Source of the DNA: Venturia oleaginea | Taxonomy: Eukaryota; Ascomycota; Dothideomycetes; Venturiales; Venturiaceae | Assembly: GCA_013176395.1 (NCBI GenBank) | Contig: JABMLP010000003.1 | Coordinates: 186,001 to 250,000, forward strand | Length of the DNA: 64,000 bases | Direction of reading: 5' to 3' | Shown: positions 1,933 to 44,509 of the stretch, piece after piece | Numbering within the stretch: position 1 is the first letter of the stretch | Layout: every line of letters starts with the position of its first letter | Program-made: the position numbers and the translations under genes | Notes under the pieces: generated by a model | Databases searched by the model: none | What the model saw: the letters and a program-made list of their open reading frames with translations, nothing else | What the model was told of the DNA's origin: nothing

Positions 1933-2484
1933 CGACGTCGGTTGGAGACGATGTTGGACTGTAACGATGTCATGTGGTGGAACCTTGTTGTATGATATGG
2001 ACGGGAAATGGGCTCTGTGTATATATGGGTGGATTTTGTCCTCGTCTTTAGCGATTTGATGCTCTTGGGTTGGGTGGATGGGCATGCTAGCAATTGGTGG
2101 CATTTGTGATCCCAAAAGCGTGCACCTATCGTGCACCTATATATAATAAAGATATGTTATTCATTCAACTCTGTGCTCTTAAGTGAGGTGTCAACAAAAA
2201 GGTCGCTTTTGAATCACGCACGAACTGGTAGGAACCTATGGTTTTGGAAATTGTCGCGAGGTATCGTTGTATCCTGAACAGGAAGTAGCAAAATTTGCGA
2301 CCCACCATACCTTTAAGCGCGAGCGCGACCAGGACAATTCATCAACCACGCATGATAGCGATGCAACACTTGATGGTAGGGGTTGCAAGAAAACGGCCAC
2401 TCCAATAAGCAATTTCAATAAATTAACCCTTAGGACGTTTCTTCTTCGCTCTCCCGTCCGCAAACGAGAGACAGCAATGAAAAA

Positions 2485-2632
2485 AAAATTGTAGCTTCTC
2501 TTTGATTGAGCGTGTCATCCTTAGTGCAGGGGCCATGCTAATCTTCTCTGTATCGTTTCAAATTGACCTGGCTTTCATTAGAGAAAGTCAAAGTTGGAAG
2601 GTTGGGGTGACAAACCAAATGTTCCGAAGAAC
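2485..2632 (-). ncRNA. U6: U6 spliceosomal snRNA, split by an intron
   Basis: On the minus strand the RNA starts at 2632 with the 5' stem-loop GTTCTTCGGAAC and is interrupted after ATTTG (2616). It resumes at 2567 with GTCAATTTGAAACGATACAG. The ACAGAGA box, the AGCATGGCCCCTGC segment that pairs with U4, the AGGATGACACG segment and the 3' region ending CAAAGAGAAGCTACAA are all present, followed by a run of nine T (2480-2488), a Pol III terminator. Joined exons match the conserved U6 core over its full length at about 100 nt. It forms the catalytic core of the spliceosome. No clear TATA box lies at -30. Identity is certain from the invariant motifs; expression is inferred. Confidence 0.96.
2568..2615 (-). 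other. 48-nt GT-AG intron inside U6
   Basis: Read on the minus strand the insertion begins GTTTGTCACC and ends CTCTAATGAAAGCCAG, with a CTAAT branch-like element 10-15 nt before the AG. Its removal restores the unbroken U6 sequence across ATTTG/GTC. Size and signals match the protein-gene introns of this window. It lies between the 5' stem-loop and the ACAGAGA box, outside the catalytic residues. Introns in U6 are known from fission yeast and some other fungi. Confidence 0.9.
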
Positions 2633-17848: not shown

Positions 17849-18257
17849 GGTTGAGAGGCTACATGTTGAGTTCTTGCCGGAGAAGACATGGTGTCAATCT
17901 CTCGAGGTTGTACAAGTGAAGGGCGGGAGGACACTCAACGAATGCATGACAGAAGCAGTAAGACCTAAATATAAGTGGATAGGCAGAAGATTCATCTTGG
18001 CAAGGCTGCGAACCTAATTGGTTGACGAGTAGCACCTATTTGACAACGCCTGCAAGTCCATCTAGCAACCAAAAATTAGTCTGCATATCTCAAAGATTAT
18101 TTTTTTAGCACTGGACTGGATCAAGAGGTTGAATAGTGCTCTAAAAATCTTCCAAAGCGCATTTAGCTTCGGACTACACAAAATAGATGCGCGCCCGCTC
18201 ACCATCTATCATTAACCAACACAAGAGAGCAAAAAGAGAGCATAAAAGAAAACTGAC
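17849..18257. other. Spacer between glycosyltransferase and tRNA-Gly
   Basis: About 400 nt. It includes the promoter side of the glycosyltransferase gene and, on the tRNA side, T-rich Pol III termination signals on the minus strand (TTTT at about 18249-18252). Nothing else is seen. Confidence 0.6.
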
Positions 18258-18292
18258 TGCGCTACCCAGGACTCGAACCTGGATCTCCAGCT

Positions 18293-18317
18293 GTCATTCA
18301 CATCACCTCACGGCTTA
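18293..18317 (-). other. Canonical 25-nt tRNA intron (37/38)
   Basis: Lies directly after the purine at position 37 (A) and before A38, the normal site cut by the tRNA splicing endonuclease. The anticodon stem closes perfectly once it is removed. Confidence 0.8.
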
Positions 18318-18334
18318 TGGAAGGCTGGAATGAT

Positions 18335-18389
18335 CTGCTTTCAGTTAGTTGTAATACTTAGATTCATAGAGAGATAAAGTCTAACGTAC
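18335..18389 (-). other. 55-nt spliceosome-like insertion in the D-loop of tRNA-Gly
   Basis: Begins GTACGT, has ACTAAC 12-17 nt before the end, and ends GAAAGCAG. These are optimal fungal donor, branch and acceptor signals, and the length equals that of nearby mRNA introns. It lies after tRNA position 20, between intact box A and box B. It is not at the canonical tRNA-intron position. Confidence 0.8.
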
Positions 18390-18409
18390 AACCCCTACAC
18401 TAGTAGCGC

Positions 18410-43168: not shown

Positions 43169-43484
43169 AGTGGGCTGTTTGTATTGTGAGGTGAAAATGT
43201 GAAGTATGCGGGTTGGTCTTGCAGTTTGTATTTATGTATCGGCCTCAGTGTTGTTATATTTGATGTCCTCGGAAGTGTGTCTTTTCCCGACTAGTTATGA
43301 TGCCTTGATGTTATGATGCCCAATCGCAGAAGAAAAGTGCAGAGGCGGAGTGCGTGAGAGATGGCGCGGGATGGGCCTGATCGAGAGAGTGGGGCGACTG
43401 AAGAGGCGAGTCAGGTCCGCTCTAAGAAAAAGTTGGTGGTCTGCAAAAGCTCGAACAAAGGTGATCGCAATCCAAACCACAACC
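43169..43484. promoter_or_regulatory. Divergent promoter region (GRX4 / RPF2)
   Basis: Only 316 nt separate the two divergent start codons, so promoter elements are probably shared. No specific site is identified. Confidence 0.5.
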
Positions 43485-44509
43485 ATGTTGAAAGCAGCGT
43501 ACGTACACAATCTCTATTGCAATCGCTGAATACTCACCAATACAGCGCCCCCAAAACTGCTCGCACCAAGCGTGCAGTAGAGAAGAAAGCTCCTCAGCTC
43601 GTCGAAAACGCAAAGACAACCCTAATACTCCGCGGTGAAAAGTGCAGCCAAGTCGTCCAGCTCGCCCTCGCCGATCTCAACTCCCTCAAGCGCCCTCTCT
43701 CGATCAAATTCACAAAGAAAAATGGCATCCACCCCTTCGAAGACCCTTCCTCCCTCGAGTTCTTCTCCGAGAAGAACGATGCCTCCCTCCTCATTTACGG
43801 ATTGACGAGCAAAAAGCGTCCTCACGCTCTGACTTTCGTGCGAACATACCAATACAAGATTCTTGATATGCTAGAGCTATATCTTGACCCAGAGACATTT
43901 CGAACACTCAGTCAATTCAAGAACGCCAAATGCGCTGTCGGACTGAAACCAATGCTTTCGTTCTCGGGCACTCTATTTGACAGCCCCATCCCAAATGCGT
44001 ACACACTCGCCAAATCCCTCTTCACTGACCTCTTCCGCGGCTCAGACGTCACAGAAATCGACGTGGAGGGTTTACAATACATGATCCACATTTCCTGCGG
44101 CGAAGAAGTTGAAGGCCAACCCGCTCCCCAAATCCACATCCGCAACTACCGCATCGTCACCAAGAAATCAGGCCAGAAGCTGCCACGCGTGGAAGTTGAA
44201 GAGATTGGACCTAGAATGGACTTCAGGGTTGGAAGGATACAAGCAGCGGATGAGCAAATCATGCGCGAGGCACTCAAGAAACCCAAGCAATTGGAGCCGA
44301 GGACGAAGAAGAATATCGGCATGGATTCTATGGGTGATAAAATCGGTAAGATTCATGTTGGAAAACAGGATCTGTCGACGCTGCAGACGAGGAAGATGAA
44401 GGGACTGAAGAGGACGAGGGAGGATAGAGAGGAGGACGCTGGTGATCTCGAGATGGAAGATATGATGGTTGATGATGAGGAAAGGCTTGATGTGAAGAGG
44501 CCGAGGTAG
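43485..44509 (+). CDS. RPF2: Ribosome production factor 2 (Brix domain)
   Basis: Predicted 325 residues. The first exon is only 14 nt (43485-43498, ATGTTGAAAGCAGC), then a 47-nt intron (GTACGT...ATACAG) and exon 2 43546-44509. This start gives MLKAAAPKTARTKRAVEKK, the normal N-terminus of Rpf2; the open frame continues upstream through the intron but that reading is atypical. The Brix domain runs from about residue 25 to 240 with KTTLILRGEKCS, LKRPLSIKFTKKN and HPFEDPSSLEFFSEKND, and GLTSKKRPHALTFVR. The C-terminus is Lys/Asp/Glu-rich. With Rrs1 it brings 5S RNP (5S rRNA, uL18, uL5) to the nucleolar pre-60S particle. Confidence 0.96.

Follow-up and report, generated by a model that had tools for sequence, protein, structure and literature searches.

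Within the 64,000-nucleotide stretch of Venturia oleaginea DNA that was analysed (the window), a tRNA-Gly(UCC) gene interrupted by two inserts, as the original prediction had proposed, lies on the minus strand. The gene was read base by base alongside L004 (C13:391003-391087), a Gly(UCC) gene whose only insert is a 13-nt intron at position 37/38; here L-numbers denote the tRNA loci read in the genome and C-numbers the contigs of the same assembly. After removal of both inserts, the window gene and the mature sequence of L004 are identical at 72 of 72 positions. The gene has the following parts.

18258..18409, minus strand: tRNA-Gly(UCC) gene, 152 nt, two inserts, spliced product identical to L004
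18390..18409, minus strand: exon 1 (20 nt), from the 5' strand of the acceptor stem into the D loop, by base-by-base reading
18392-18402, minus strand: box A-like TAGTGTAGGGG, inside exon 1
18335..18389, minus strand: putative spliceosome-type intron of 55 nt in the D loop, after mature nt 20, assigned from a single motif-blind placement with GT..AG borders and from its signals
18384..18389, minus strand: candidate 5' splice site GTACGT
18344..18349, minus strand: ACTAAC as branch-point motif; its presumed branch A (18345) is 10 nt away from the 3' end of the intron
18335..18338, minus strand: candidate 3' splice site GCAG
18318..18334, minus strand: exon 2 (17 nt), with the remaining D arm, the 5' strand of the anticodon stem and the anticodon TCC
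18293..18317, minus strand: canonical 37/38 intron of 25 nt, at the same position as the 13-nt intron of L004
18258..18292, minus strand: exon 3 (35 nt), with the 3' strand of the anticodon stem, the T arm, the 3' strand of the acceptor stem and A73
18269-18279, minus strand: box B GGTTCGAGTCC, inside exon 3
18244..18252, minus strand: TTTTCTTTT just 3' of the gene, a possible Pol III stop, with four Ts starting 5 nt behind the gene

The spliced 72-nt product has a 7-bp acceptor stem and 5-bp anticodon and T stems, all without mismatch, just as predicted; in an energy fold of the bare product the D arm is left open. The A and B boxes are each contiguous in the DNA when judged by a simple consensus. 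The features that define a nuclear tRNA-Gly(UCC) gene are thus all found here: a cloverleaf with TCC after removal of the inserts, both boxes and a T run. The 55-nt insert likewise has two hallmarks of a U2-type intron, namely GT..AG borders and, close to the 3' end, a branch-point motif. A tRNA pseudogene is recognized by broken stems or by the loss of signals; such defects are seen in the paralogue L003 and are absent from the window gene. Conventional tools did not recover the gene properly: it was missed by ARAGORN run without introns and by Rfam at the gathering score, and ARAGORN with introns allowed found the interval and named it Lys(ttt). Since standard tRNA finders miss or misname such genes, further cases elsewhere may have gone unnoticed. 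The window also contains, at a distance of about 16 kb, a complete U6 snRNA gene without insert (2483-2587, minus strand, 85.8 bits, model positions 1-105). It further encodes a Brix/RPF2 protein (43361-44506), whose best named match is a protein of Venturia effusa (93% identity, 84% of the query covered); a metagenomic-type record has a higher score (89% identity, 99% covered).

The borders of the D-loop insert could be placed without reference to splice motifs. A 55-nt removal was slid along the gene and scored by identity to L004 alone, which gave one best placement, with GT..AG ends; the predicted insert at 18335-18389 is thereby upheld. Four GT-AG choices and several choices with decoy dinucleotides at the window gene also fold as a tRNA, so that structure alone is insufficient for setting the borders, and it is the paralogue that fixes them. 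When GT..CTRAY..AG excisions on both window strands were tried, 4 of 836 yielded a tRNA, all four at the window gene, as compared with 0 of 1379 in the reversed sequence; a chance origin of the pattern was rejected on these counts.

The other Gly(UCC) copies that a search of the genome brought up are L004, which lacks the D-loop insert, and L002 (C12) and L003 (C25), which have an insert at the same D-loop position as the window gene and a second one in the T loop, between GGTT and CGAGTCC. All four insert placements in L002 and L003 are single, three of them GT..AG and one, in L003, GA..AG; L003 is visibly decayed, with this GA donor and broken stems. Further intron-less paralogues allowed the same kind of comparison. 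Ser(AGA) L053 without its intron matches the intron-less L017 at 81 of 81 positions, with GT..AG among 6 tied placements, and Arg(UCG) L061 matches the intron-less L103 at 72 of 72, with GT..AG among 3 tied placements. Agreement is lower for Ser(AGA) L058 against L037 (78/81) and reaches only 72-73/81 for the Ser(GCU) pairs. Glu(UUC) L097 matches L020 at 57 positions with 5 tied placements, where the L020 reading has 74 nt, one more than that of the script; this comparison is given no weight. In genes without a compared intron-less paralogue, the borders were set jointly by the splice signal and the cloverleaf.

Across the assembly (46.08 Mb in 61 contigs), 19 of 76 readable nuclear tRNA genes carry 22 such introns, and these genes are spread over 15 contigs. 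An assembly error at one locus was rejected on this distribution. The intron-bearing genes comprise Gly(UCC) (three), Gly(CCC), Ser(AGA) (two), Ser(GCU) (two), Arg(UCU) (two), Arg(CCG), Arg(UCG), Leu(UAG), Glu(UUC), Glu(CUC) (three), Ala(CGC) and Ile(UAU). Of the remaining 57 genes, which are free of such an intron, 50 were read by script (53 rows, from which three intron loci that had been misread were subtracted); ARAGORN supplied six Met(CAU) genes, and a single Ser(CGA) gene was read by eye. Genes were gathered by an Rfam tRNA search, by generic box-B patterns and by homology. None of the intron-bearing genes required a splice motif for its discovery, and three of them also came up in a motif pattern. 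The box-B patterns exceeded their reversed controls modestly (37 vs 24, 36 vs 26 and 31 vs 19), so that rows were counted only where a tRNA could be read; patterns with CTAA or CTGA before box B showed no excess over reversed-pattern controls (10 vs 18 and 11 vs 16). The figure of 19 is a lower bound, because scoring in the Rfam search covered 63 of 1697 candidates and later patterns added genes that it had missed. Introns in the T loop are under-sampled, as the patterns need a whole box B.

Outside the 76 stand L056, L057, L088, L090, L093, L098, L104, L106 and L122, a truncated Leu copy at C23:763715, an Arg(UCG) match at C59:1415715, as well as everything on C38 and C58, two contigs with tRNAs that appear to be mitochondrial. 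L056 (at the end of C19) and L057 (C60) are Ile(GAU)-like, score 35.7 bits and have near-identical flanks; one of them lies about 240 nt from a contig end. L090 (C7:1013900-1014400, minus strand) has good acceptor, D and T arms and a long anticodon-loop insert that starts before the anticodon and is not readable as a standard 37/38 intron. The truncated Leu copy, a 3' part, is found about 130 nt downstream of Leu(UAG) L105 (C23:763500-764200, minus strand), which has a T-arm intron; the copy seemingly has a related one.

The 22 introns are 51-89 nt long, with a GT donor in 21 and an AG acceptor in all 22. A CTRAY motif whose A lies 8-20 nt before the intron end is present in 19 of 22, as compared with 6.7% in shuffled introns; the exceptions are the D-loop intron of L003 (the one with the GA donor), L116 (CTAAA) and the second intron of L118 (CTAAA). 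The insertion sites are scattered over the tRNA. On the D-arm side they follow mature nt 9 (Ile), 13 (Ala), 15 (Glu(CUC)), 17 (Arg(CCG)), 18 (Glu(UUC)) and 20 (Gly(UCC)); Glu(CUC) L118 has its variable arm interrupted after nt 46; and T-arm introns come after nt 51 (Gly(CCC)), 52 (Arg(UCU)), 54 (Gly(UCC) L002 and L003), 58 (Arg(UCG) and Leu) and 60 or 65 (Ser). Within the Glu(CUC) family (L116, L117, L118 and L119), three genes share the D-loop site, one of these three has the second intron in the variable arm, and the fourth gene has neither. In L053, L055 and L058 (Ser(AGA) and Ser(GCU)) the introns follow the same mature position, 60, and the last G of the intron completes box B; these introns may have a common origin or may stem from repeated insertion.

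The original prediction had also likened GTACGT, ACTAAC and GCAG to the signals of mRNA introns in the window. All three are present in the 55-nt insert, and their layout agrees with that of 10 candidate mRNA introns, which came from a simple open-frame search that gave 2 in the reversed sequence. These candidates are 46-91 nt long and have GT..YAG borders, and in 9 of 10 a CTRAY lies 8-15 nt from the end, the search having required CTRAY within the last 45 nt. In length and layout, the putative introns of the tRNA genes match the candidate mRNA introns of the window.

Signals for transcription by RNA polymerase III surround most of the intron-bearing genes. Four consecutive Ts occur no more than 45 nt behind 14 of 16 such genes, as compared with 15.2% of window positions, and three further Glu(CUC) genes have them 8, 25 and 27 nt behind; for Arg(UCU) L052 the nearest run is 79 nt behind. 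Both promoter boxes are contiguous in 10 of 19 genes, including the window gene, while box A is split in five and box B in four. The notion that the introns always spare the boxes was dropped, since 9 of 19 genes have one of the two interrupted. Taken together, the T runs and boxes point to Pol III for most, though not all, of the intron-bearing genes. Avoidance of TTTT inside the introns was not significant (1 of 18 against 3.3 expected, with 13% of shuffles as low), and the intron of L116, beyond the 18 counted, also contains TTTT.

Between paralogues with an intron at the same site, 92-99% of the exon positions are identical, and their GT-AG introns align about as well as shuffled sequences do (z from -0.8 to 2.0). 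The window gene and L002 agree at 70 of 72 exon positions (z = 0.9 for the D-loop introns), the window gene and L003 at 68 of 72 (z = 0.4), L002 and L003 at 66 of 72 (z = 0.2 in the D loop, 2.0 in the T loop), and the Arg(UCU) genes L052 and L108 at 71 of 72 (z = -0.8). The divergence is not uniform: in comparisons among the Gly genes, the 37/38 introns (z 2.0-4.9) and, to some extent, the 5' flanks (z 1.5-3.0) are more alike than the GT-AG introns. Gene conversion may have contributed to the exon identity; a conversion tract across the gene, however, would equalize the introns too. A whole-genome search with a 281-nt query including the window intron matched only itself and three Gly genes. 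The window intron has no other match in the genome and lacks the many near-identical copies that characterize introners, and a recent introner copy was rejected on this ground and on the shuffle-like alignment of the paralogue introns. Group I and group II self-splicing introns are far longer than 51-89 nt, and an origin of this kind was rejected because of that size.

For two tRNAs, no copy free of the intron was found. When the genome was searched with the spliced Arg(UCU) sequence of 72 nt, two copies came up, each interrupted in the T arm by an intron (51 and 55 nt); the corresponding search with spliced Ile(UAU) brought up a single gene, which has a 54-nt GT-AG intron. Such DNA searches detect close copies only. 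A pattern for the Ile(UAU) anticodon arm with up to 3 mismatches had the known gene as its only exact match, and no other was recognized among 27 rows. As read, Ile(UAU) has a mismatch in the acceptor stem and another in the anticodon stem, and L108 (Arg(UCU)) has A at position 33. The codons in question are in use: in five window ORFs with Pfam matches, AGA occurs 26 times and AUA 31 times among 2566 codons. To our knowledge, no other nuclear tRNA reads AGA or AUA under the standard decoding rules. The cell would therefore need the introns to be removed, unless a divergent or unassembled copy exists.

Judged from the DNA, the inserts are probably U2-type spliceosomal introns that are removed from Pol III pre-tRNAs. 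In the scheme that is proposed, the window gene would be transcribed by RNA polymerase III and its pre-tRNA would pass two splicing machines. The spliceosome would remove the D-loop intron as a lariat, using GTACGT, ACTAAC and GCAG, and the 37/38 intron would be removed by the tRNA endonuclease and a ligase; the transcription, the splicing, the lariat and the order of steps are all inferred. Introns of this type would have been inserted into D, variable and T arms in roughly one in four of the readable nuclear tRNA genes, a fraction that applies to the sample of 76 only. Action of the spliceosome on a Pol III transcript was among the alternatives of the original prediction, and it is the one that gains support, from the 22 introns in 19 genes, the mRNA-like signals, the conservation confined to exons, and the Arg(UCU) and Ile(UAU) genes. 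The interruption of tRNA genes is real and recurs across the genome, and it is very probably spliceosomal in nature.

The same prediction had allowed that the copy is not functional. The window gene is intact, yet L004 supplies the same tRNA, and the window copy, taken by itself, may have lost its function. Extended to all loci, the explanation would be that the introns landed in redundant genes, which are now dead and make no tRNA. Dead copies are what the review by Yoshihisa (PMC4090602) supposes where the D or T arm is interrupted in one of many synonymous genes. The redundancy of the window copy, the broken stems and GA donor of L003, a T-stem mismatch in Ser(GCU) L062 and the splitting of one promoter box in nearly half of the genes would fit, and apart from the L062 mismatch these observations also weigh against the main reading, as do the distant T run behind L052, the A at position 33 of L108, the two stem mismatches of Ile(UAU) and the uneven divergence among the Gly genes. 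Dead genes, however, would not be expected to keep donor, branch site and acceptor, and 15 of the 22 introns lie in genes with at most one stem mismatch when spliced (by script or by eye). Also against it are exons 97-99% identical (the window gene and L002; the Arg(UCU) pair) around introns that are no more alike than shuffles, and the lack of an intron-free copy among the Arg(UCU) and Ile(UAU) genes found. Wholesale death of these copies is an improbable account.

Action of the spliceosome is normally tied to capped Pol II transcripts. It could thus be argued that the genes are spliced as proposed and transcribed by Pol II, alone or within longer transcripts, and the split A or B boxes agree with that. 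Pointing the other way are the T runs close behind 14 of 16 genes and the uninterrupted A- and B-like boxes that 10 of 19, including the window gene, possess; and the fission yeast U6 RNA, a Pol III transcript with an mRNA-type intron, is spliced (PMC10484740). Transcription by Pol II is for these reasons very unlikely. The chance is smaller still that the tRNA-splicing endonuclease cuts out the 55-nt piece, as an ectopic second tRNA intron. Ectopic introns in the D and T arms do exist in nucleomorphs and in Cyanidioschyzon merolae, and junctions 20/21 and 59/60 are known there for permuted genes (PMC4090602, PMC3978253). In the minimum-energy fold of the window precursor, by contrast, the borders of the 55-nt piece do not lie in two opposed bulges, and GT..CTRAY..AG borders are not known as a part of endonuclease recognition. 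The same fold has the 5' splice site paired inside a hairpin, which weighs against the spliceosomal reading. Our own scoring of the bulge-helix-bulge (BHB) motif tells in neither direction, since it gave no separation from shuffles even for the 37/38 introns used as controls.

Removal by the spliceosome thus being the preferred reading, it is fairly likely, if less so than the splicing itself, that tRNA maturation in this fungus depends on two machines, that AGA and AUA could not be read without the spliceosome, and that splicing and decoding capacity are directly coupled. Nuclear tRNA introns are taught as separate from mRNA introns, with one position, one endonuclease and one ligase. The present data suggest that, in Venturia oleaginea, the apparatus for mRNA splicing takes part in tRNA production as well. 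If this is true, the spliceosome can process short, folded and presumably uncapped Pol III transcripts, and intron gain reaches beyond protein genes. These genes would also offer a natural test bed for intron gain, as they encode small RNAs of known structure, some with intron-less paralogues in which the exact site is visible.

No report of spliceosomal introns in nuclear tRNA genes was found among the open-access papers listed in the searches. A contrast is offered by the window gene itself, where the 25-nt intron (18293-18317) is of the canonical 37/38 kind, whereas the 55-nt piece interrupts the D loop and has other signals. Among known systems, the nucleomorph of Guillardia theta and Cyanidioschyzon merolae are alike in having introns in the D and T arms, sometimes several per gene (PMC4090602, PMC3978253). 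According to the same texts, the ectopic introns of Guillardia are 3-24 nt long, whereas those described here have 51-89 nt with GT, CTRAY and AG; and those of C. merolae are linked to BHB motifs and the tRNA endonuclease, in contrast to the GT, CTRAY and AG signals found here. PMC2586383 cites spliceosomal introns from the rDNA of ascomycetes (Bhattacharya et al. 2000) and from the U2 gene of Rhodotorula (Takahashi et al. 1993); these resemble the present case as spliceosomal introns in fungal noncoding RNA genes, but the genes are not tRNA genes. The U6 snRNA gene of fission yeast contains an mRNA-type intron (Tani and Ohshima 1989, 1991, cited in PMC10484740). The likeness is that a small RNA made by Pol III is interrupted by a short intron of mRNA type, while in Venturia oleaginea another class of RNA would be concerned, in many genes and at many positions, and beside an intron of the tRNA endonuclease.
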